Below are positions 12,725 to 59,329 of a stretch of 64,000 nucleotides of DNA, one piece after another. Below the pieces are notes generated by a model that was not told where the DNA came from, ran no database searches, and worked only from the letters and a program-made list of their open reading frames with translations. Every line of letters starts with the position of its first letter. Within the stretch, counting starts at the first letter, position 1. A program made the translations under genes and the position numbers. This DNA is from Bryoerythrophyllum caledonicum (lineage: Eukaryota > Streptophyta > Bryopsida > Pottiales > Pottiaceae): NCBI GenBank assembly GCA_963971425.1, contig OZ020517.1:20346462-20410461 (forward strand). Reading direction: 5' to 3'.

Positions 12725-13665
12725 ACTTCATTGACAATTTCACACCAAAAACACTTCAAAATTGCTTGTTTTAGTGCAATGAGTAAGGACGAAACAAAAA
12801 ACTTTCACTTCTAGTTTTAACCGTAGGATCTCAATTAAGATTTATTAATTAACTTAAATTTTAAAAATTAATAAAATTTGACCGCACGGATTGTAATATT
12901 ATAGTGTTTGAAGTAGAGAAAAGGGTCCATTTTCTTCCTTGCGTTTTATGGATCAGCAGACTTTGACTTCACTTGGTGTTAAATTTTTGCACTACACAAG
13001 GTCTAAATTCATTTCCATCATGTTAAGCATGATATTTGTTCCTTGTACTCCAATTTTAAGAGGTAGAAAAAGGGTGTAGCATATTCAAAACAATTGTGGA
13101 AGGAGTGGAGGTTCAAAACTTGTCAATTTGCGTTATTATTTTTTGTGAACTTAGTATGTTTTAGAATGAGAAATCGAATGGTCAATAAGAAGGTTTACAC
13201 CACATAATGCTGCGGAAAAAATAAAAAGTAAAAAATATGATGATCTCAAAGTTTTTTGTGAAAAAGAAGTTTTTTTTGAACCTTGCCTGACATTGTGCAA
13301 TAATGTGTGAAAATGTTTGACTTGGATTTTAATAAATTTTTTCACTATAGACAAGAGGATTTTTTTGGACAATTTGAAAGGAAAAAATATTACTTGCTAG
13401 TATTGAAAATCTCACATTTAATAGTGTCCTAACAAAAGTTTTTGGAATTGCCCGACGTGCCAGCTCTCCCTATTTGAACTTCAAAACCCTATAACTTTTT
13501 CATTAAATGTCGGATTTAGGAAAAAATTGGACTAACACAAAGTTTTTAGTAATGTCCATCTACATTTAAAATATTATAGAAAAATATTATAAAATTAACA
13601 CCATAGGACTGCCCAAACCTTCTACACTCCCCCAAGGGGACTCTTGGAAATTTAGGGATTTAGAG
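12725..13665. mobile_element. Degenerate copy of the 945-bp TTAA element (family Z)
   Basis: Aligns by eye with 54760-55660: acaccaaaaacacttcaaaa, ccgtaggatctcaat, gatcagcagactttgactt, ccctataactttttcat. The left terminal repeat is missing. The right end near 13655 is decayed (ttggaaatttagggattta). Many C to T and G to A changes suggest an old, methylated copy. Confidence 0.65.
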
Positions 13666-15097: not shown

Positions 15098-15831
15098 CCC
15101 CTAAAGGCCCAAGGCATTTAAGCATCCAAACTCATTGAAAACTGCCAGTTTCAACGCATTCAACACAAAATGCAAATCAACACAATTTTTACATATCTAA
15201 CCGTAGAATCCCATATTAGGATTGTACAAGTATATGTGATGAAAGTTTTTTTGGTTTGATTGGACGGATTGAAAGATATCAGCCTTTGAAGTGAGACAAA
15301 AACTCTACTAGAGGTCATACTAAACACCTTCATCAAACTTTGACCACCTTCTATGGCTATTTTTTGCACTACGGTCCGCAATTTTCTAATTTTAAATTAA
15401 AAGGATCATGTTAGGCACATGTAAACCAAATTTTAGAACTAGAAGAGGGATAATAGATGTCTTTAAAAATCTTGCAATGCAACTATGTACTAAGAATTAA
15501 CAATACACTTCAAGTTTTGCATATATCATATCCTTCTTATATTTTTGAAATTCAAAAATCCGTATGGTAGATGCAAATATTTCCATTTCTATTTCAAGAG
15601 GAACTTTTCTTTTATAAGATGGACAAAAACTCAAATTTCTATTGAATTTAGAATTAATCAAGTTTTGCTACACTATTTGTTACATATCACACTAAACCAC
15701 TGCACTATTTGTATATGTTATTGAAATAAAATTGTAACTTTTGAACGGTATCATAAAATCATGCCTAAATTTGAACGTGGTACCCTATTCAAACTCAAAA
15801 TGTCCTTGAGGGGACATTGGGCCCTTAGGGG
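15098..15831. mobile_element. TTAA-flanked element, 734 bp, inside the Helitron
   Basis: Flanked by TTAA at 15094-15097 and 15832-15835. The left end CCCCTAAAGGCCCAAGG and the complement of the right end, CCCCTAAGGGCCCAATG, match at 14 of 17 bases. It is non-coding. The same family occupies 26108-28523, where it carries an insertion. It splits the Helitron reading frame exactly between the ...MRRFALT and GECLWRW segments. Confidence 0.85.
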
Positions 15832-16119: not shown

Positions 16120-17465
16120 ACCTTTGTACAATACCCTCACACAAGTATACGTACTTTTTTGATTTTGTACGTTACCATATTTCACGGCTGCCAACTTTGG
16201 CACCCTCTTGAGGGCTGAAAATTTGTCAATTTACCATGAAATTTTTGGCACAAGATCACCTTTATATTGAAAACATGTGCGCTAGATTTCAAGGCCAGAA
16301 GATAAATACAAAAAAAGATATTCAAAATCTACCAAGATGTGTAGTTGTGAGCCATTCACAGCAAACCAACTTTGACACCCTCCCAAGGATTGATAGAATT
16401 TTTTTTGCCCATGAAATTTTTAGCATGAGACCACCTCTATGTTTATAATGAGTGAGCCAAATTCCAAGGCCACATGATGAATAGAAAAAAGGATATTCAA
16501 AATTGTTTCTCGTAGCTACATATTTTGGTAGATTTTGAAGAGGGTTTTTTGTATTCATCTTCTGGCCTTGAATTTTGGCGCACATGTTATCAACATGAAG
16601 GTGATCTTGTGCCAAAAATTTCATGGTCAGTTATCAATTTTTCCGGCCTAGGGAGCGTGCCAAAGTTGACAATAGTGAAATGGTTTTGCTGATTGTTTCT
16701 CACAACTACACATGTTGGTAGATTTAGATTTGTTTCTTTCTTTTGTGGGTCTTTTGGACTTGAAATTAAGCACATGTATAACCAACATAGATTTGGTCTT
16801 ATGTTTAGAATATCATGGGAAAAAATAAAAAATTGAATCCTTAGGAGGGTGTCAAAGTTGGCAGCAGTGAAATGTTTCTCACAACTATACATGTTGGTAG
16901 ATTTCAAAAATCTTTTGATATGTAGATATTTTGGCCTTCAAATTTGGCACGCATGTGATCAACATAGAGATAGTCTCATGTCAAAAACTTCATGGGAAAA
17001 TACCAAAAAATCCAATCCTTGGGGGTGAGTCAAAGTCGGCTAGGAGTGGAATGTTTCTCACAACTACACATGTTGCTAGCTTTTGATGTAGTTTTAATTG
17101 TGTGGATCTTTTGGACTTGAAATTTTTCACAAATATAATCAACATAGAGTTCGTCTCATGCTAAAAATTCCATGAGCAAAAAAAATTCTTTCAATCCTTG
17201 GGAGGGTGTCAAAGTTGGCAGCTGTGAAACTTTTCTTACAGCTACCCCATGTTGGTAAATCTTGGATATCTTTTTTTGTATAAATCTTCTGGCCTTGAAA
17301 TTTGGCACACATGTTTTCAACATAGAAGCAATCTTGTGCCAGAAATTTCATGGTAAATTGACAAATTTTTAGCCCTCAGGACGGTGCCAAAGTTGGCAAC
17401 AGTGTAGTGTGGAAACGTACAAAAGCAAATAGTACGTGTACTTGTGTGAGGGTACTGTACATATA
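16120..17465. mobile_element. Foldback-type element with about 200-bp inverted arms and internal tandem units
   Basis: The left arm (about 16120-16325) and right arm (about 17265-17465) are inverted copies: ataccctcacacaagtatac pairs with a gtacttgtgtgagggtac run, and both hold a gccaactttggcac/gtgccaaagttggc block. The interior has degenerate units of about 180-200 bp containing tgtttctcacaactacac, starting near 16666, 16867, 17047 and 17225. At least two units near the left end run in the opposite direction. It is non-coding and sits in the Helitron gene between its Rep and central parts. Confidence 0.7.
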
Positions 17466-19844: not shown

Positions 19845-22303
19845 ACTGCGTTGTATTTTCATTAGAAATTTCAAAATTTATGATAAAATCTGAGATCTTA
19901 AGAATCCACCCAAAATGGAAAAAGCCATGTAAGGGACACATGGTCTTTTAGTGGTTAAGAACATTGTGAAGAATAAGTTGTCAAATTGTCTTCATTGTAT
20001 TTTATTTAAAAGTTGTTTATTATGAAAATGACTAGAAACGCATACTTGGGAAAAAAATTCTTGGCTTGGTTTGCAATTGGAAATTGAAGATTTTGCAAGA
20101 AAGGGCGTTGTGAAGTTTAATTAAAATTTTAATGATATTCCATCAATTACAAATGCTTAATTCCTAAAGAGCATTATTCCCCAAGATACATTTTGCATTG
20201 TGGGCAAGTTCCTATGATGTCAATTTTAATATCAAATTTTGAAGTTTTTTGTTACAGTGCCATATTTTTTTCTTCATGGAATTTGTTTTTCACATCAAAC
20301 TTCTAGATCAAAGGTTATGCTATTCTAAGGGTAGACTGTTCCCATTTAACTCCCAAGACTTTTTCTACAACCTTCTATAGACATTAAGAACGTGTTTATA
20401 ACTACATAATATCATCTTGTTTGATGTTGTGATTTTTTGTCTTTAGTGTAGAATTCCTATCTCAACTGAAGTCAAACATTTCCACACTTCTTCTTTTCTA
20501 CATAAAAAATTAGATATTTAGATATTTGTTTGAATTCTCAATCTTATAACAAATTTTAAAGATAAAAAAAAAATGTATACTTGAACCGTTGCTCTTTGCA
20601 GAATATTTTTGAATATGCTACATCCGTCTTGTACCTCTAAAATTTGGTGTACAAGTGAGTGACATCATATAAAAAGTGACATTGGCCTAAGTTATAGACC
20701 TTGTGTAATGTAAAAGTTTGACACTATGTGAAGTCAAAAAACCATTTGTCTCCATTTCTACACTTTATGCTAGAATGGGCTAATTTTTAATGAGAATAGT
20801 CAATGAACTTTAAGTGTAAAAAATGATTACACTTTTTTTTAAATTACCAACCGAGACTTAACCAAAGCTTCCTAAGGAGTCAAAGAACAATAAAAAAATA
20901 AAAAGTGAATTACAATGATTGGAGAAAATTGAAATGAATGATGGATGAAGAATGGAAGGAGTTATCAAATGAGATTTTTGTAAGTATACAAAAAACCAAA
21001 TTATACAACTTTTTGAGTTATATTCCTGATAAATCAATAGAGTACCAACATCTTCTTTGATACTATCTGTAAACTTCAATGACTTATTTAAATCTCCTTT
21101 ATTTTAACATACTTCAAATACCAAATCATTCTAAATAAATATTTATTTCTTATTTCATAATATCCCATCATTTTTTTTTGGTTTTTTTTAAGGAAAGATA
21201 AGTATAATATTTTTGTGTATAAAGGAAAACTAACATGCTTTTACATTTATATAATTTTTTTATAAGTTCAACAAAAACTTACCTCAAATATGACATACAT
21301 TATGGACCTTAAATATTAAAATGATTCAAGAACAGAAAACAATATCAGTGCCATCTTAAATATTATATATCACTTGAAAATCTTTATAAAAATGACTAAG
21401 CTAAAATTCTAGAGTACTTGATGATGTTATCATCTAATTGTCTTTTGAATTTGATGGCATCATATTTAGCAAGTTTGGAGGTAAAAATCAACTAATCCAA
21501 TCCACTAAAATTCTTTTACCAATGTTCTAGGTTGTCTTGACTACTGGTATTGTGTACTATGTACAATGTATTGTAGTTAAATATACTATATATTATATAT
21601 ATAAAGAAGATGCACCATGATATAAAATTGATTATTTTGAATGAGATTTTGTACATGAAAATGTGTGGCCATTCTCGGCCCAACACACATTGGAGAGAAA
21701 ATGAAAAATATAACAACTAGTCCGGACATTGAAACCCGTGCCTTATGGATCTTCTTCGCACTGTACAAAACTGAACAGGTGCACTTCAGTTGCAGTACAA
21801 GTCATGGCATGTTTGTTGAGAGATCCTCAATAATTTTGTCATTAAAATTCATAGATCGCATTCAACAAGTTGATGTAACTTCAAAGAATGTGACCTTGAA
21901 TTCCGCTGCCACACTCCACCATATTCATCACCTAATATGCGGTTCTCATGGCTATGGTGGTGAAACTGAAATCTTTAGACTGTCAGGTTTATCGTAAATA
22001 GTGTTATGCCACAACCACTACCCCATGTATGTATTTAACCCTTAAACATCAAATAGCACATATTTTACTCAGTATTAAATTTAAATCATATTATACTTTA
22101 GCAAGTCTTGTACCTTTGGATTGAAGATTCTTCAACTAAAATCTTTGATTTGGAGGTCATTTCAGTATCTGAACCTCATCATGTTCAAATACAACACCAA
22201 ACATGTAGAATATTGTGGCCACGAGTGGCACCTTGTGATGTTAAGGTCAAGGGTTACTATGTGAGGTACTTCACTTTGTTGATCTTAATCAAATGCATCC
22301 TAA
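19845..22303. other. AT-rich intergenic, no recognisable gene
   Basis: Long A/T tracts and short spurious frames. One isolated TTAA-CCCTTAAACATCAAATAGC end lies at 22035-22057, possibly a solo terminus of the TTAA family. Confidence 0.4.
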
Positions 22304-22600
22304 CCCTTTAAGGCCAATGAGCTTTACTGGCCTGTAAGAATCTACGAGTGTTCTAGATCATGGAGAATGACATCTATACATTGCGTACGTTTCAGTACGG
22401 AAATCTACAAACTCGTTTAATGGAAATCACCGTAGCTCGCCGATGCTTGCATTGATTGTCGTGGAAATGGTTTCAATAGATGCCCATCTTCCTTTACCTC
22501 CAAGTCATAGTCTATTTTTTCCTTTGAGGTGGCTTGTAGTGCTTGCTACAAAGGTTCTTGTGCCAAAACAACCCATATATGGTCATTCGGCCTTATAGGG
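22304..22600. mobile_element. TTAA-flanked element, 297 bp (family Y)
   Basis: Flanked by CTAA (22300-22303, presumed mutated TTAA) and TTAA (22601-22604). The left end CCCTTTAAGGCCAATGAGC and the complement of the right end, CCCTATAAGGCCGAATGACC, are clear inverted repeats. Relatives lie at 56791-57094, 57099-57679 and, partially, near 29712-29905. Non-coding. Confidence 0.8.
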
Positions 22601-22849
22601 TTAAAAGAATGCCTCGGAATTTACTTTGTTCTTGTGGTTCATATCTTCTTGCTTGCATGTTTTATTAGTACCACAAAAAAATTCATCCACCATTGTTTTT
22701 CAACCGTTCCTTTATAAATGCCATTGTTAGATCCAAATTTTATTTTTATAAAAAATAATAATAATAAATAAGTTTTTGTTTTTGTTTTTTGGTTTACTAA
22801 GTAAAAGGCTACTTTCTATACCCCAAGTCATTGCAAGTCCATTTATCTT

Positions 22850-26103: not shown

Positions 26104-26236
26104 TTAATCCCTAAAGGACCATGACATTTTAATACCTAGACTTAGTGAAAACTGCCAATTTCAATGCATTCAACACAAAATTCAAACAGACACAATTTTC
26201 ACATATCTAACCATATGATCTTGGACTAGTATTGTA

Positions 26237-27920
26237 TAGTACTTGGCAAGAGAGATATGGACAACCTTAACAAGGCCAAAAACATGGTGAACTTTTGTGA
26301 ATGCCAAAAATTATATTTTTCATAAAATTGCATAGGGCCCTAGGAGCACCTACATATTGGGGTTGTTGCCAAGTGGCAAAGGTTAGATTAATCTAATTGC
26401 AATGTCTTTATGATCAATCAAGGATTAAGTGAACATGTGTTGTTTTGGTGTTCTGAATTAAGTGAACATGTGTAATTTTGGTTGTTCTTATTTGAGACAC
26501 TTGTGTTGACATACATATGTGCATTTCAACTTGGATATGCACAACCTTCTTGTATTTATGCACCATGACATATCTCCAAGGCAAATTGAAAGAGAAATAA
26601 GGTAAGACTGGGAAATTAGTTGACTGTCCTCTTTCAAGTAGAATTGTGCCATTTTAAAGAAAGGTGGTAGCTAGCTCTTTGTTTGCAATGAAGTCGAGGA
26701 ATCTCACAATAGAAGAAAAGGGTCGTATTGTTGGTATGCACGAAGCGGGAGTCTCCGGTGCTCAAATCGGATGTGAATTAGGTATAGCGCATTGAATTGT
26801 TCCTGCTCTTATAAAGCCGTATCAGCTTCATGCTATTGTTGGTTCTCCGAAGTCTACAGGTAGAAGATGTAAGCTTGATTTCCGTAACAAGTGACAACTC
26901 AAACAACTTGTGCTTGGAGTTCGTCGTACACCTATTGCTGCAATGAAGGCCCAAATGACAACAAAAGTTTGCATTCGTACATTGAGGCGATACATTCGGG
27001 CTCTTGGCTTCAACAATCGTGTTGTAGTCAAAAAGTCTTTTTTCAATGATGCACACAAGCACAAAGGCTTGTTTTGATGAAGCTCATGCACATTGGAGTG
27101 AAGAACAGTGGAAGAATGTCATATGGACGGATGAATCATTGTTTGAGGTTGGCAAGGATTCACGGTTGATACGAGTTTGGCGTCAAGCTTACGAGACGTA
27201 CTCATGGAATTGCTTATGCCCAACCTTTAAGTCCGGAAGTGTTTCCATATGATACGGAACGCTTTTAGTGGCTATCATAAGTCTTTTATAATCATATTCC
27301 CTGCAGGTAGTTCTTTGTGAACTACTGCTGACTTTGTAAACATTGTATACGAGGGAACATTATCTACCTTTTATATCCTCCATGATCATCCAAATGCCAT
27401 GATTTTCATGGAGGATGGTGCTCCAATATATTGTAGTTCCCTACCTAACAGACCAAAAGAAGCTTATGACATGACAAAATCAAATTGGTTGCCTAACTCC
27501 CCAAATTTGAAACCTGTAGAGAATCTATGGAAAGTTGTGAAGGACCATGTTTAGAATAAGTATCGGCCACTTTCTTAGGAGAAAATGGCTTTACCCATTC
27601 AACGGGAAACGAGCCTCTAGAAGTGTGCTTGATACACTTATATCCACAATGCCGTATAGAATGAAGGCTATCATTGATGCTCAAGGTGGTAGTACTAGAT
27701 GGTAGACACCGTGTCAAAAAATATCCAAATTGTTGTATATTTTGTACTTTTCAACATGAAATATTATACAATTTGAAAATATACTCTCTACGCTTTTTAT
27801 TGCACTTTACGGTTCTCAATTTCATGCATTTTTGAATGGTTTACAACATTTTGAATTTAAGAGTTTTCACAGGGTTGAGGCTTGAAATTGCTTTGTCCAT
27901 ATCTTAGCTACTGAGTACTG
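26237..27920 (+). mobile_element. Tc1/mariner-like transposon, 1.68 kb, decayed
   Basis: Bounded by TA at 26235-26236 and 27921-27922. The left end TAGTACTTGGCAAGAGAGAT and the complement of the right end, CAGTACTCAGTAGCTAAGAT, are imperfect terminal repeats, both followed by ATGGACAA. The intact relative at 15098-15831 supplies the empty site. It contains the transposase pseudogene at 26688-27705. Confidence 0.85.
26688..27705 (+). pseudogene. Tc1-like (IS630/Tc1/mariner) transposase pseudogene
   Basis: Starts MKSRNLTIEEKGRIVGMHEA, a helix-turn-helix-like N-terminus. A stop follows ELGIAH. Later segments are TLRRYIRALGFNNRV, HAHWSEEQWKNVIWTDESLF (first catalytic Asp), MIFMEDGAP (second Asp), and WLPNSPNLKPVENLWKVVKD (third acidic residue, Glu of PVEN, DD34E-like), ending MPYRMKAIIDAQGGSTRW. 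At least five stops or frameshifts disable it. The first two catalytic Asp and the Glu are still readable. SPN replaces the usual SPD. Confidence 0.85.
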
Positions 27921-28711
27921 TACAAGTATGTGGTATGAATTTTGTTGAGTTTGAGCGCACGGATTGAAAGATAGTAGCTTTTGAAGTGAGACATAATCTC
28001 TTCTTGAGGTTGTTCAAACACCTTTAACAAACTTTGACCACCTCCAATTATGGCAAATTTTTGCACTACATGCCGTGAATTTCTAATTTTAACTTAACAA
28101 TGCAACTATGTGCTGAGAATTAACAATCACTAACAAGTTTTGCATGTATCATATTCATCTTTTATCTTTGAAATTCAAAAATCCGTATGGTGAATGCAAA
28201 TATTTCCATTCCCTTCCAAGAGAAATTTCTCTTTCTTTTAAATGGACAAAAACTCAAACTTCTATTAAATTTAGAAAATAAAAGTCTTGATGCACTATTT
28301 GTTATATGTCACACTAAACCGCTCCATTACTTGTATATGTTATCAAAAAATGTTTGTAACTATTGAACTCTAAGTCGAATTTCTATTAAAAATGATGTCC
28401 TCAAAAAGCTATTAGAAAGCTGCCCATTCAATAAAAATCTCATAAAATCATGCCTAAATTTGAGATTGAGGGACTCAATTAAAACTCAAAGTGTACCCTG
28501 AGGGAACTCTAGTCCTTTAGGGGTTAAGGAATTTTTTACCTTATTGGGGAAAAAATGAAGCTTGGAAGTGGGCATGGGAATTCAAGGGTAGATGTAGGAT
28601 TAAACAAGGAAAGTTGGGAAGTTTAAATAGTTTCATTAGCTATAAGAGACTATAGCTAGGAATAGAAGAAAATAAAGGGAATCTTTGAATAGTGAAGAAC
28701 AACTATGAAAG

Positions 28712-33279: not shown

Positions 33280-33475
33280 GGACATTGGGTGAGGACGTTG
33301 GGCGCGGATGGATGGATAGGGTGTGGACGTTTGGACGCGGACGAAAGTGCAGGGCGCAAACTTAGAGCGCGAACAATATGTAGGGCGTGGACGTATAGAC
33401 ACAGACGAAAGTGTAGGCCACGAACTTGGGGCGCGGACGGATGGTCTCGTGTGGACGTTCTGTTGGGGCGCGAAC
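33280..33475. repeat. GC-rich minisatellite in left arm
   Basis: Irregular units of about 20 bp built around gcgcggacg/gtgtggacg and gacgaaagtg. It is the shorter counterpart of 36475-36890. Confidence 0.7.
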
Positions 33476-34539
33476 TTTACCCAGTCGACGAAGTAGACTA
33501 GCCAGGCTAGGCGGGTCTTTGAAATGCACTTGGACTTTGGACTTGGCATTCCTCCTTTCCATGGACTCAAGAAACCATTAACTATAGGCGACTCAAAAGA
33601 TCTTGATGTACCTCAAAAAGCACATCAATTTTGTCTTTGCCAAGAAGTGGGAGGGAAATCTATATTAAAGTATAACTTTGGACCTTGGATCTCAATATTG
33701 AGGCTGAACGAGGTGTTTCAAAGAGGTGGGTCCTTGTTTTAATTGCGCCTTCTTATTTTAGGCAATCTAGAGCCTTTTTTAAGAAATTTGTTGGGCAAAT
33801 TTGGGGCCTCTGGCCACAAATTATTCTGAGAGGCCCCTATTGGATATTAATAGTTCCTCCATTCAAAAAAGAAACAGAAGCCAAGTTTTATCCCATCCCC
33901 CTCCTCCACTAGCTTGTGGCATTGTGCAACTTCAAAATTGAGATCCTTCGACCTCTAACTGTAAGCTCTTAAAAAAAAGCATCTTTGCTGTCTCCCCATA
34001 TTTTTCCGGGCCCATGTAAGTCACTAAAAATGAATCCAATGTTAACAAGGGAAATAGGAAGAGAAATGAAAAGGTCCAAAAAAATCATAAAGTATCGCAC
34101 ATGTTAGAGGTCTAAGAATAAAATGGAAACCATTTAACATCGGTGTAAAAATGGCTTTTCTATGTTTCAAATAGACTACGTATACAAAGACCAATTTTGA
34201 GTGTTTAATGTAGCAAATTAAAATTTTCTCAAAGTACTATAGCACTTAGCTTTGTAAAGGCTTGTAGAATTTTTCGTGGCTACTATAAACTAGAGACATC
34301 GACACATGAATATTTAGGGGGTGTCTTGATAACCACGTCATGTGTTTTTTTAATTTTGTATTACATGATGCATATGAAATACATATTAATCAAAGTATAT
34401 TTTTAGCCCAATATTGCATGTGTGATTTATGGATCTACTCATTTCATAAGAATTCATAGATGTGAATATAATATGAAGGTATGATCACAATTTAATTATA
34501 GTGAAAACTTTTTTTCTTCAAATAATCGGTTATTGTTAA

Positions 34540-35235
34540 CCCCTAAGAGCCCAAGACATTTCTTAGTATGAAACATTGCACAAATTCCACGCTCAAAAAG
34601 TGGCAAAATCATAAATTGGCTATAAAAATTTGGACTTTTGACTATAGGATCTAAAAAAGACTTTAATTTGAACTTACTATTTTTTTTGAGCTGCCATCCA
34701 CTGAACAAATTGAAAGATTATAGTGTTTGAGGTCAGAAAAAAGAGGATCATTCCTTCCCTACGTTGAGTGGATTTGCAGACTTTGATTTCATTTGGTATT
34801 AAATTATGTCCAAATCTTTTACCATTGTGTTAATCATGATGTTAGTTCTGTACACATCAATTTTTTGAAGTAGTAGAGGGGTGTAGCACATACAAAAAGA
34901 ATGTGCAAGGTGTGGAGGTTCAAAAACTGCCATTTCACATTTTATTTTTTGTGAACTTGATGTGTTTTAGAATGATAATCCAAATGGTTATTAAGAAGAT
35001 ATTCACCACATATTGTTATAAAAACAAACAAAAAGTGAAAAAATATGAAGATCTCTATGTTTTATGTCAAAAAGATGAAGTTCTTTTTCCCCCTTGCCCA
35101 AAATGTATGAAAGTATTTGACTTGGATTAGAATGTATCTTTACACTATAGAGAAGAATTATTTTCTGACATCTTCAAAGAAGGTAATATTCTCTCCATGT
35201 ACAAAAAATCTAAATGTCAATAGAAACTTCTAGCA
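34540..35235. mobile_element. Truncated 945-bp-type TTAA element (family Z)
   Basis: Preceded by TTAA (34536-34539) and starting CCCCTAAGAGCCCAAGACAT. The interior follows 54718-55400: ttgaaagattatagtgtttg, tagtggatttgcagactttg, ggggtgtagcacat. The right terminus is lost. Confidence 0.75.
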
Positions 35236-36474
35236 AATTTTTTTGCAATATAAAACACAATTCTTAACTTCTTTCTTCATTTTATTTCTCTGTAGAATAA
35301 CGAGAGAGCTTTGTATGGGATCTCTTTATTGACCCTGGTTGAGCGTTGCACCAAACCTCAGCCTCGGGTGGGTCCATTTTTCTGGCCCTGCCCATTTTAG
35401 GATTCTAGAGCCTTTTCATGGATTTTTTTGGGCCAAATTTGGGACCTGCGGTCCCAAATTACTCCAGGAAGATCCCCTTAAATCAAGTAGGGCCTCCCTC
35501 CAACATGAAAATAGGGCCGGTTTTGTCCCTACCCTCCCCCACCCTTGCAAGCCTAAGGCTTGATGTAACGCTCGACCGGGGTATTTAGGCAAATCCCTTT
35601 GTATGGTTTGTATTTAATTTTTTTCCTAAATAAAAATAATTTTGAACCTGTTTTGTACTATTCATATATTTTGTACATATAAAATGGGAAAGTCAATTTC
35701 TTTACGTTTAATTGGAAACTTTTACATTTCCTTTTCATTGGTCTATGTATATATGTGGTCTATTTGAAACATAGAAAAGCCATTTTTACACCGATGTTAA
35801 ATGGTTTCCACTTTATTCTTAGACCTCTAACACGTGCAATACTTTATGATTTTTTTGGACCTTTTCATTTCTCTTCCTATTTCCCTTGTTAACATTGGAT
35901 TCATTTTTAGTGACTTACTTGGGCCCGGAAAAATATGGGGAGATAGCAGAGATGCTTTTTTTTTAAGAGCTTACAGTTAGAGGTCGAAGGATCTCAATTT
36001 TGAAGTTGCACAATGCCACAAGCTAGTAGAGGAGGGGGGGGGGATAAAACTTGGCCCCTGTTTTTTTTGAATGGAGGACCTATTAATATCCAGAAGGGGC
36101 CCTTTAGAATAAATTGTGGCCAGAGGCCCCAAATTTGCCCAACAAATTTCTTAAAAAAGGCTCTGGATTGCCTAAAATGAGAAGGCGCAATTTAGACAAG
36201 GACCCACCTCTTTGAAACACCTCGTTCAACCTCAATATTGAGATCCAAGGTCCAAAGTTATACTTTAATATAGATTTCCCTCCCACTTCTTGACAAAGAC
36301 AAAATTGATGTGTTTTTTGAAGTACATCAAGATCTTGTCGGAACTAAAAATAAGAGTCGCGTGTAGTTAATGGTTTCTTCAGTCCATGGAAAGGAGGAAT
36401 GCCAAGTCCAAAGTCCAAGTGCATTTCAAAGACCCGCCCAACCTGGCTAGCCTACTTCGTCGACTGGATTAAGT

Positions 36475-36890
36475 TTGCGCCCCAACAGGACGTCGATACG
36501 TGAACCATCCGTCCGCGCCCAACCTCCGCGCCATGTACACCGTGTCCATCTGTCTGCGCCTAACGTGTACGCCTTGCCCTTTCATCTGCACACTGCTCTT
36601 TCGTATGCGCCATGTCCATCTATTCGCGCTCAACATCCGTGCCCTGTCCATCCGTCCGCACCCAACTTCTGCACCCTGTCCATCGGTTCGTGCCCTGCCC
36701 TCTATTTTGCACTGTGCCTTTCCGTTTGCACCCTATCCATCCGTCCACGCCCGACATCCACGCCTTGCCCTTCCGTCCACACCATGTCCAGCCGTCCGCG
36801 CCCTGCCCTTAAGTCCACGCCATGTCTTCTGTCGGCGCCCTCAGCCTTGTCCCACGTCCCGGCCCCTATCAATTCTGTCCCCGCCAAGTG
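36475..36890. repeat. GC-rich minisatellite in right arm
   Basis: About 20-bp units around gtccgcgccc and catgtccatc or cgccctgtcc. It is roughly twice as long as its mirror at 33280-33475, so the arms diverged in copy number. A 195-codon open frame here is a by-product of the repeat. Confidence 0.75.
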
Positions 36891-37164
36891 TCCTTTCAGG
36901 CAGTCAGGTGGCGAGAACGTCGCAACCGTGTCGCTTTTTTTACCTTACCAAACAGTCAACAATCTATTGACTGCATTGGATGGTAGGACCTCAACCGGAC
37001 GGGCAAATCGGACGGCCACCCAATATGGCAACCCTAGTGACAATCTCACAACTAATGTGTAGAGGTCCCATTTCCACCCATTCATCCATCCAAATAGAGT
37101 TCTGCTTTCTATCAAATTCATTTATATTTGGTTCGCACTTAGCGGCCACCAGCTAGACATGGCA

Positions 37165-48108: not shown

Positions 48109-48112
48109 TTAA

Positions 48113-48334
48113 CCCTTAAACGACAAATCTTTCTATAGAAATTGTATAGAATCTTTGAATTTTAACACCCATATTTAGCTACCATTTACATTCTTATTAT
48201 ATCACATGATTATTATTATACATTCAAAGAATTTTGAAAAAGAAAAATCATTAAAATGAATATCCATCGTTAGAAAATCATGGTCAAAGTGAGTTGAAAA
48301 ATGAAAAAACCAAGCTGGCTCTGACGTTTAAGGG
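48113..48334. mobile_element. TTAA-flanked MITE, 222 bp
   Basis: Left flank TTAA (48109-48112), right flank TTAG (48335-48338). The left end CCCTTAAACGACA and the complement of the right end, CCCTTAAACGTCA, are inverted repeats with one mismatch in 13. AT-rich and non-coding. Confidence 0.8.
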
Positions 48335-48338
48335 TTAG

Positions 48339-54712: not shown

Positions 54713-54717
54713 TTTAA

Positions 54718-55662
54718 CCCCTAAGATTCCAAGGCAGTTTTACACCAAAAACACTTCAAAATTAATGGATTCTAGTGCAATGAATAAAGAAGGTAACAAA
54801 AACTTTGATTTTTAGTTCTGACCGTAGGATCTCAATAAAGGCTTATTCAGTAATACATGTTCAAAATTTCATAAACTTTGACCGCACGGATTGAAAGATT
54901 ATAGTGTTTGAAGTCAAGCAAATGGTTCATTTTCTTCCCTGCGTTTAGTGGATCAGCAGACTTTGACTTCAGTTGGTGTCAAAAAATTTCACTACACAAG
55001 GTCTAAATCTATTACCATCTTGTTAAGCATGATGTTAGCTCCTTACACACCAATTTTTAGAGGTAGAGACGGGGTGTAGCATATTCAAAACAAGTGTGCA
55101 AGGAGTGGAGGCTCGAAGTTTGTTAATTCACACTTTAATTTTTTTTGAACTTAATATGTTTTTCATTGATAATCCGAATGGTTAATAAGAAGGTTTACAT
55201 TACATATTGTTGTGGAAAAAATAAAAAGTGAAAAATATGAAGATCTCTAGGTTTTATGTGGAAAAGAAGAAGTTTTTTTGGTACCTTTCCCGACAATGAG
55301 TGAGAATGTGTGAAAATGTTTGACTTGGGTTGGTATGCTATTTTTCACTAAAGACAAGAACTTTTTTTTGACAACATGAAGGAAAATAATATTACTTGCG
55401 AGTACTGAAAATCTCACATTCAATAGAGTGTCCTATCAAAAGTTTTTGGAGGTGCCCGAGGTGCCTGCCCTCCCCATTTAAAATTCAAAACCCTATAACT
55501 TTTTCATCAAATGTCCAATTTAGGAAAAAATTGTTTTCCCACTGAGCTTTTGGTAATGTCTTTCTATAGTAAAAATTTCAAAGTGGAATGTTGGAAATTG
55601 ACACCATAGGAACCTGACCGAACTTTCAAAAAGCCCTTTTTGGACACTTGGTCCTTTAGGGG
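54718..55662. mobile_element. TTAA-flanked element, 945 bp (family Z), copy 1
   Basis: Flanked by TTAA at 54714-54717 and 55663-55666. The left end CCCCTAAGATTCCAAG and the complement of the right end, CCCCTAAAGGACCAAG, are inverted repeats. Nearly identical to 57684-58627, and related to 12725-13665 and 34540-35235. Non-coding. Confidence 0.9.
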
Positions 55663-55666
55663 TTAA

Positions 55667-56786: not shown

Positions 56787-56790
56787 TTAA

Positions 56791-57094
56791 TTCTCTAAGG
56801 CCAATGAATTTTTCTCGCTTGTTAGAATCTACAAATGTTCTAGATCATACAAAGTGACATCCATGCACCTACAAATGTTCTAGATCATACAAATTGACAT
56901 CCATGCACCAGGTATATTTCAGCACAAAAAACCTACGAACTCATTTAACAAAAATCATTGTCGTGGCGATGGTCTCAATAGATGCCCATCTTCCTCCACC
57001 TCTAAGTCATGGTCTATGTTTTCCTTTGAGGTGGCCTGTAGCGCTTGCTACAAAGGTTCTTGTGCCAAAACAACCCATATATGGTCAATTGGCC
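56791..57094. mobile_element. TTAA element family Y (second of tandem array)
   Basis: Between TTAA at 56787-56790 and TTAA at 57095-57098. The left end TTCTCTAAGGCCAATGA is the family CCCTTTAAGGCCAATGA with three transitions. The right end is ggtcaattggcc, without the outer 8 bases seen at 22593-22600. Confidence 0.75.
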
Positions 57095-57098
57095 TTAA

Positions 57099-57679
57099 CC
57101 CTTTAAGGCCGATGAGCTTTTATGGCTTGTGAGGATCTACGAGTGTTCTAGATCATGCAAAATGGCATCTACACAGTGGTTACATTTCAGAACAAAAATC
57201 TATGAACTCATTTCACAAAAATCACTGTAGCTCGTCGATGCTTGCACCAATTGCGGTGACGATGGTCTCAAAAGATGCCCACCTTCCTCCACCTCTAAGT
57301 CATGGTCAACTTTTTTCCTTTTTCTTTTTTTTCTGGACACAAATGAAAAAGAATTCATTGCAAAAAGGTTAAAAGCACATACAAGGACACCCCACCAGGA
57401 TCGGCGAGGGCCAGAAAGGGCCGACATAGGCCCAAGGGCACAAACACAAAAACAAAAACAAAAACAAAAACAAAAAAAGAGTAAACTACGTAACGCTACT
57501 GTCTCTAAAGCTAGGATCGGTGATGTTCCACTGGGGGCAGTCGCTGACCCACTGACCAATCACCGAATTGCTACACCAAGACTCCTTCAAGGCAACAGAG
57601 CTTTTTTCCTTTGAGGTGACCTCTAGCGTCTTCTAAAAAGGTTTTTGTCCAGAATCAACCCATATATGGTCGATCGGCC
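57099..57679. mobile_element. TTAA element family Y (third of tandem array), with insertion
   Basis: Between TTAA at 57095-57098 and TTAA at 57680-57683. The left end is CCCTTTAAGGCCGATGAGC and the right end ggtcgatcggcc. Interrupted at 57322-57600 by a retroposed fragment; without it the element is about 290 bp, like 22304-22600. Confidence 0.8.
57322..57600 (-). mobile_element. Retroposed LINE/SINE-like fragment, 279 bp
   Basis: Flanked by a 12-bp duplication CTTTTTTCCTTT (57310-57321 and 57601-57612). The T-rich left edge is a poly(A) tail on the minus strand. The body contains gacacaaatgaaaaagaatt and an aaaaac microsatellite at 57434-57470. The related elements at 22304 and 56791 provide the empty site. 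Confidence 0.75.
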
Positions 57680-57683
57680 TTAA

Positions 57684-58627
57684 CCCCTAAGGTACCAAGA
57701 CAGTTTTACACCAAAAACACTTCAAAATTAATGGATTCTAGTGCAATGAATAAAGAAGGTAACAAAAACTTTTATTTTTAGTTCTGACCGTAGGATCTCA
57801 ATAAAGGCTTATTGAGTAATACATGTGCAAAATTTCATAATCTTTGACCGCACGGATTGAAAAGATTATAGTGTTTGAAGTCAAGCAAATGGTTCATTTT
57901 CTTCCCTGTGTTTAGTGGATCAGCAGACTTTGACTTCAGTTGGTGTCAAAAAATTTCACTACACAAGGTCTAAATCTATTACCATCTTGATAAGCATGAT
58001 GTTAGCTCCTTACACACCAATTTTTAGAGGTAGAGACGGGGTGTAGCATATTCAAAACAAGTGTGCAAGGAGTGGAGGCTCGAAATTTGTTAATTCACAC
58101 TTTAATTTTTTTGAACTTGATATGTTTTCGATTGATAATCCGAATGGTTAATAAGAAGGTTTACATTACATATTGTTGTGGAAAAAATAAAAAGTGAAAA
58201 ATATGAAGATCTCTAGGTTTTATGTGGAAAAGAAGAAGTTTTTTTGGTACCTTGCCCGACAATGAGTGACAATGTGTGAAAATGTTTGACTTGGGTTGGT
58301 ATGCTATTTTTCACTAAAGACAAGAACTTTTTTTTGACAACATGAAGGAAAATAATATTACTTGCGAGTACTGAAAATCTCACATTCAATAGAGTGTCCT
58401 ATCAAAAGTTTTTGGAGGTGCCCGAGGTGCCTGCCCTCCCCATTTAAAATTCAAAACCCTATAACTTTTTCATCAAATGTCCAATTTAGGAAAAAATTGT
58501 TTTCCCACTGAGCTTTTGGTAATGTCTTTCTGTAGTAAAAATTTCAAAGTGGAATGTTGGAAATTGACACCATAGGAACCTGACCGAATTTTCAAAAAGC
58601 CCTTTTTGGACACTTGGTCCTTAGAGG
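57684..58627. mobile_element. TTAA-flanked element, 944 bp (family Z), copy 2 (fourth of tandem array)
   Basis: Flanked by TTAA at 57680-57683 and 58628-58631. The left end CCCCTAAGGTACCAAG and the complement of the right end, CCTCTAAGGACCAAG, are inverted repeats. Nearly identical to 54718-55662 apart from scattered substitutions, implying recent amplification or conversion. Confidence 0.9.
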
Positions 58628-58631
58628 TTAA

Positions 58632-59329
58632 AAGGTTAAAGGGTTAAAAAGGCAAGTCAGAGTCCTTTAGGGGTTGTGTCACTAGGACCTAAATAGCACA
58701 CACTCCCTTAATTGCCTCCAAGAGGAGGCAGACGGTCTACACATTCTAATCAAAGTTACATGGTATGTTCTTGCAGGATATTCTACTCTTGTACAACGTG
58801 AGACGTCTGAGTCAGTTGATATTTTGTAAGACATCACTTTCAAAAGCAGTGACAGCCTCGGTTTCTGTTCCCAAGGTGTTCATAACTGGTTCCGGAATAT
58901 CTTAAGCTCGAGAAAGGGCGTGCATGAATGGGACGTTTGATTAGAACTGGCACATGATGGCTCGGAAAAGCGGCGTTGCACACGAACAAGTCGATCACAA
59001 CCACTGTAGTGACATCACTATTTGAAAGAAGTTATTGTCTCTTGCAGTTGCCACAGAAACAGAAACTAGTAACTAAAATTGACATAGAGTAACAACAAAA
59101 AGAAACATTATTAAGAAAGCAAAACCTGCACACACATCTTATTCAAGTAACTTAAAAATCGGAGTTACACGCTTTAACAGATCAGCAGCAGATGCTAAGG
59201 AGCAAATCCTGTGATTCAGATCTGATCGTAAAAACCTCAATATGTACAGCTAAACATGAACTCCATTAAATGCCTCTGTGATCCGAAATTCTTACTTTAC
59301 ACTCAACCGAGTCAGGTCCATGTAGTGGC
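58632..59329. other. Spacer downstream of the bilin reductase gene
   Basis: A further element end (agtcctttaggggttg) lies at 58660-58676. The 3' UTR of the bilin reductase gene probably fills 59100-59329. No other gene. Confidence 0.4.

Follow-up and report, generated by a model that had tools for sequence, protein, structure and literature searches.

The short TTAA-flanked elements carried by this stretch of DNA are almost certainly miniature non-autonomous cut-and-paste DNA transposons of the piggyBac superfamily, in a host that is probably a moss. A non-autonomous piggyBac-like family had been put forward in the original prediction, and this assignment is now supported by TTAA flanks, by unfilled sites and by transposase genes that are themselves bounded by TTAA. 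The TTAA target copies, the unfilled sites, the transposases within matching ends and their catalytic aspartates are all read directly from the DNA. The window, that is, the whole stretch of 64,000 nucleotides that was analysed, corresponds to positions 20346462-20410461 on contig C4 of an assembly of 437 Mb in 894 contigs, and it contains the following elements of this kind and their relatives:

54714..55666, + strand: 945-bp non-autonomous piggyBac-type element (54718-55662), given with both TTAA copies
57680..58631, + strand: second 945-type copy (element 57684-58627), 98% identical over 940 bp, TTAA on both sides
57095..58647, no strand given: older element of the CCCTTTAA type (297/581 family), whose left TTAA is at 57095
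56787..57098, + strand: probable additional 297-type relative (TTAATTCTCTAAGGCC ... GGCC-TTAA), located between the 945-type copies 54718-55662 and 57684-58627
22300..22604, + strand: 297-bp CCCTTTAA-type element (22304-22600), left flank CTAA, right flank TTAA
15094..15835, + strand: 734-bp CCCCTAA-type element (15098-15831), TTAA on both sides
26104..28527, + strand: 2416-bp relative of the 734-bp element (26108-28523), ends TCCCTAAA / CCCCTAAA, TTAA on both sides
48109..48338, + strand: 222-bp CCCTTAAACG element (48113-48334), left TTAA, right TTAG; family length about 231 bp
12735..13622, + strand: older 945-family copy (81%), ends not intact
34709..35245, + strand: 945-family fragment (75%) within a long inverted repeat

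The 945-bp element at 54718-55662, with TTAA on both sides, is exactly as first described. Seven elements had been proposed to end at TTAA or a one-base variant of it; four of them (15098-15831, 26108-28523, 54718-55662 and 57684-58627) have TTAA on both sides together with inverted ends, and two more have a one-base variant on one side, but the right end assigned to the element at 57099-57679 was wrong, as its right side reads GGCCGATCGACC inward and not a CCC end. The 945-type copy 57684-58627, whose own right end is CCTCTAA, appears to have been inserted just inside the terminus of this element and so deprives it of a proper right end. The sequence just after that copy reads AAGG-TTAA-AGGG-TTAA (58632-58647), and the true right end of the CCCTTTAA-type element that begins at 57095 is likely near 58643. 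The proposed CCC(C)T starts with inverted copies hold for most of the elements, the exceptions being 57099-57679, without its right end, and the element at 26108, which starts TCCCTAAA (TCCCT) and not CCCCTAA. Terminal inverted repeats starting CCY, the form found in the piggyBac superfamily, are present, with one window copy starting TCC. The interior of the 2416-bp element, about 1.7 kb in length, gave no match among the other sequences compared in this analysis, and the relative at 56787..57098 contains 141 bp that are 91% like the 297-bp element.

On both strands of the window, 15 motifs of the form TTAA[C/T]CC[C/T]T were observed, against a mean of 3.4 and a maximum of 7 in 100 first-order Markov resamplings, and inverted pairings of the motif 150-2600 bp apart numbered 7, some of them joining neighbouring elements, against a mean of 0.13 and a maximum of 1. 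The short elements had been described as carrying no coding sequence, and in agreement with this, two transposases had no significant tblastn match in the window (best E 2.5). Elsewhere in the window, 33445-36503 forms a long inverted repeat with four arm blocks (about 0.75 kb per side, 91-96% complementary), and the 945-family fragment at 34709-35245 sits mid-way in it. At the right edge of this repeat, overlapping open frames of 165-203 codons (36451-37062) are Ser/Pro/His/Cys-rich by eye; they are probably repeat sequence, not a gene.

A genome-wide search with the terminal sequence, one of the checks suggested with the original prediction, comes out in its favour. A 29-base pattern of the left end, allowing up to two mismatches, has 1,105 matches in the genome (550 forward, 555 reverse), and the reversed control of the same pattern has 0. 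The exact left end preceded by TTAA has 413 matches (200 + 213), and among the first 100 perfect 945-type left ends listed, TTAA stands directly before 99, the only one without it being at C2:38750189. When the 945-bp element was compared with the genome, all 40 scored candidates cover query positions 1-944 or 1-945, and the 39 other than the query itself are 96-97% identical to it; these 40 were scored out of 5,304 first-look candidates, which are not confirmed copies.

Flanks were read for 25 copies with a length of at least 900 bp, which came from 24 of the 28 loci examined, one locus contributing two; the loci L049, L050, L061 and L062 gave no such copy and were dropped. TTAA is found on the left of 23 copies, on the right of 21 and on both sides of 20, some of the 25 being segmental duplicates and one (L048) being cut off on the right. 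The variant flanks are TTAG on the right only (L003), TTGA on the right (L051) and TTAG on both sides (L008); TTAG is among the variant piggyBac target sites reported in PMC10813416. At L057-L060, one 945-type insertion with identical near flanks recurs on C1 in four places 16.6-17.1 kb apart, and it therefore lies within a tandem or segmental duplication.

The 297 and 222 families are also present elsewhere in the genome. For the 297 family, with 40 scored of 2,041 first-look candidates, 41 match rows were obtained at 83-86% identity, apart from the element itself (100%) and one row at 77%. For the 222 family, with 40 scored of 108 first-look candidates, identity is 93-98% apart from the element itself; 33 of the 39 other copies span 229-232 bp and 6 match 203 bases only, and the window copy therefore seems to be short by about 9 bp.

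Alignment to empty sites, a further check suggested at the outset, was possible through three filled 945 copies with the same flanks (L052, L054 and L056), which are probably one insertion that was duplicated afterwards. The flanks of L054 were joined at one TTAA to give a query of 300 bases, and 40 scored of 2,942 candidates in the genome match it at 94-97% across the junction, from about 44-56 to 274-278. TTAA is present once in each of the 12 unfilled sites that were fetched, against twice in the filled copies, the target being a high-copy repeat. The 41 bases around the junction are gap-free in all 12, and over the 231-235 matched bases 9 of the sites align without a gap, whereas each of the other 3 has one, outside the junction region. 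Filled and unfilled sites differ directly after TTAA, where the former carry C and all 12 of the latter carry A. TTAA on both sides of the element and single in the empty site is the target arrangement of the piggyBac superfamily. Within the window, a cluster of direct and inverted repeats at 16158-17429 is akin to this target repeat (best piece 85%).

The original prediction had also called for a search for DDE_Tnp_1_7 genes bounded by TTAA and CCC(C)T ends, and such genes were found in three lineages. A PF13843 (DDE_Tnp_1_7) profile search gave at least 120 match rows in the genome, from 116 scored of 305 candidates and with a few genes giving two rows, and 0 in 14 control genomes. Long elements were delimited in three lineages, by aligning two copies per lineage up to the end of homology:

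4.9 kb lineage: C9:3124490-3129422 (4,933 bp) and C4:15096672-15101613 (4,942 bp), 97.2% identical
6.5 kb lineage: C3:17753132-17759686 (6,555 bp) and C9:9718676-9725151 (6,476 bp)
10.9 kb lineage: C3:16507305-16518192 (10,888 bp) and C4:9618410-9628990 (10,581 bp), three blocks at 91.7-95.5%

In all three lineages the homology ends at TTAA or no more than 9 bases from it, the outside flanks differ, and the elements are bounded by TTAA and have ends of the CCC(C)T form, namely TTAACCCTTAAACGCCCA or one base different in the 4.9 kb lineage, TTAACCCCTAAAGTTCC and TTAACCCCTAAAAGACAA in the 6.5 kb lineage, and TTAACCCCTAAAGGACCAAG (one base different in the second copy) and TTAACCCCTAAGGTACCAAGG in the 10.9 kb lineage. 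In the 4.9 kb copies the transposase domain lies in frames of 465 aa, and another frame, of 279-280 aa, lies apart from these on the upstream side. The 6.5 kb copies, whose identity is 99.4% in the main block of 5.8 kb and 100% in a left block of 355 bp, have open transposase frames of 793 and 785 aa, and the longest Met-started frames of the 10.6-10.9 kb copies are 496 + 208 aa and 441 aa. A third 6.5 kb-type copy (on C1) begins at the same TTAA; its right end was looked for and not found. An end of the 10.9 kb element at an internal 953-bp copy was considered and dropped after alignment extension. Two of the long elements are themselves placed in 945-type sequence, so that the 945 family also supplies empty sites of another kind: the 6,555-bp element sits at an internal TTAA of a 945-type copy, pieces of which flank it on both sides, with a 3-base alignment gap one base past TTAA, and the 4,942-bp element sits in a more diverged 945-type copy with a less clean junction alignment.

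For the two transposases checked, the Pfam match to DDE_Tnp_1_7 has E 1.9e-81 and 6.5e-77, and the solved relatives are piggyBac (6x67/6x68, E 1.3e-28 and 5.5e-29) and piggyBat (9c0f). Both have Asp at the D268, D346 and D447 positions, and both have a C-terminus that is Cys/His-rich by eye; a cysteine-rich domain is C-terminal in piggyBac transposases (PMC8086355). A DDE_Tnp_1_7 domain within such ends and the catalytic aspartates, which belong to the definition of the piggyBac superfamily, are found in the long elements only. A PDB row for the 793-aa protein (8tm0, E 0.00098, 27 residues) was taken as a chance match.

Comparison of the short and long elements centres on their ends. At one end, the 10.9 kb element and the 945-bp element have 60 of their first 67 bases in common (TTAA included), and at the other end the first 20 bases of the 10.9 kb element (TTAA included) are identical to those of the window copy 57684-58627, with looser similarity beyond. 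Judged by these termini, the 10.6-10.9 kb lineage is the closest transposase-bearing relative of the 945 family seen, and the family therefore has a good candidate partner lineage. With short, non-coding members of homogeneous length whose ends are in common with a transposase-bearing relative, the 945 family has the attributes of MITEs. The transposase frames of the 10.6-10.9 kb copies read as broken or shortened against the 785-793 aa of the 6.5 kb lineage; therefore no intact source of the 945 family was identified, and an intact transposase partner was not found among the three delimited lineages. The 222-bp element and the 4.9 kb element have the terminal 10 bases or so after TTAA in common and little more, and for the 297 and 734 families none of the three delimited lineages provided a transposase-bearing partner.

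The 945 family may instead have been moved mainly by the 6.5 kb lineage, or by a lineage other than the three delimited here, and not by the 10.9 kb lineage, a possibility we take seriously but regard as rather unlikely. Open frames of 785-793 aa in two near-identical copies speak for the 6.5 kb lineage, as does a right end with 69% similarity to that of the 945 family across some 170 bp, and only 3 lineages were delimited out of at least 120 transposase match rows; terminal identity to the 945 family is, however, clearly higher in the 10.9 kb lineage. Separately, an origin of the 945 family by internal deletion of the 6.5 kb element, with its 945-like piece as the true right part, was tried and dropped; that piece is internal (945 positions 22-886), and some 1.9 kb still separate it from the right end.

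On the main reading, the transposase group of the 10.9 kb lineage is inferred to move the 945 family. A DDE_Tnp_1_7 transposase from longer relatives elsewhere in the genome would recognise the ends of the short elements, which in the 945 family are CCCCTAAGRTWCC... and CCCCTAAAGGACCAAGTGTCC..., would excise the elements and would then insert them at TTAA, leaving TTAA on both sides. By analogy with animal piggyBac, this movement presumably proceeds by hairpin-mediated precise excision, and in the 945 family it appears to be recent.

A TA-duplicating Tc1/mariner-like element, with ends starting ACCCC and a preference for T-TA-A targets, had been named at the outset as an alternative, and it is now very improbable. 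At a perfect TTAA palindrome, duplication of TTAA and duplication of TA (with terminal A...T) yield filled sites, and likewise empty sites, that do not differ in sequence, and the palindrome by itself cannot separate the two modes. What disfavours the alternative is the transposase superfamily, as elements with such ends encode a piggyBac transposase (PF13843) and not what a Tc1/mariner assignment would call for, together with the four TTAA bases, which are all near-invariant, and, weakly, as one case, the TTAG on both sides of L008, which is what duplicating four bases at a variant target would produce. The Kolobok and Sola3 superfamilies also use TTAA targets, a property that is by itself common to them and piggyBac, but an origin of the short elements from one of these, with the piggyBac genes as unrelated neighbours, is hardly credible, given that a transposase-bearing piggyBac element agrees with the 945 family at 60 of the 67 first bases of one end and that the elements bearing piggyBac transposases are themselves TTAA-bounded.

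A land-plant host had been proposed together with the piggyBac assignment, and the LEAFY locus supports it. The genome contains 7 LEAFY-domain matches, and the locus of the best one also encodes NKPKMRDYVHCYALHCLD; an Asp at that position is of the moss type. The window also carries an F-box gene and a xanthine/uracil permease gene, neither of which is plant-specific. On the LEAFY residue together with these two genes, the host is probably a moss.

Several 945-type copies (L005, L055, L065 and the window copy 57684-58627) are inserted at the terminal TTAA of another element of piggyBac type, either within it or next to it. Such terminal positions make up 4 of 20 distinct contexts, whereas among control TTAA sites they make up 21 of 378 for the window and 10 of 239 for the loci L066-L081, in a count that uses a loose motif test, includes among the 4 the window copy that prompted the idea and draws on a window that is itself enriched. 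These numbers are no more than suggestive of a tendency to insert into the ends of other elements of this type. On a broader and more doubtful reading, which we offer tentatively, mosses might harbour a diverse and recently active native piggyBac radiation that prefers TTAA in or beside the ends of its own kind and forms nested clusters. Such a radiation would comprise several lineages of transposase, elements as long as about 11 kb and well over a thousand miniature copies, and the cluster at 54.7-58.6 kb of the window might then be an example of its nesting.

The elements of this genome resemble piggyBac of Trichoplusia ni and piggyBat in their TTAA target copies and CCC-starting ends, and the transposases are alike in the DDE_Tnp_1_7 domain and the equivalents of D268/D346/D447 and, as judged by eye, may be alike in a cysteine/histidine-rich C-terminus. 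They differ in the probable moss host, in a 793-aa transposase with a long N-terminal part and in the distance of the match to solved piggyBac, and the long elements measure 4.9-10.9 kb, some with nested copies, against about 2.5 kb for piggyBac (2,472 bp according to PMC10813416). MITEs of piggyBac type are described in corals (PMC2872659) and insects (PMC9033116), and MITEs of angiosperms have been assigned to piggyBac (PMC10004981). In outline, the published elements are similarly short, without coding sequence and with piggyBac-type target sites, and ours differ in the probable moss host, the range of 222-945 bp and the transposase-bearing relatives in the same genome.

The statement in the original prediction that this superfamily is not well described in plants is correct only in part. 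Published papers already name piggyBac among plant transposon superfamilies and piggyBac-type MITEs in angiosperms (PMC10004981, PMC10794571, PMC8086355), and a fern repeat table has 1,230 piggyBac entries amounting to about 122 kb (PMC6890710). For full-length TTAA-bounded piggyBac elements of mosses, in contrast, no description was found among the papers listed; most subscription journals lay outside the search, which is therefore weak evidence of absence. The piggyBac kind itself is known, and the added value of this well-supported finding lies in the plant host and in the transposase-bearing elements alongside miniature ones.

As a widely used seamless transposon tool, piggyBac is best studied in animals. 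The present analysis indicates that it has expanded in a land plant, with TTAA-bounded elements, some of which have open transposase frames, and with more than 1,000 miniature-element ends. It gives reason to check bryophyte repeats that have TTAA flanks and CCC(C)T ends as piggyBac, and it would provide a native plant system for testing target choice, silencing and possible domestication.
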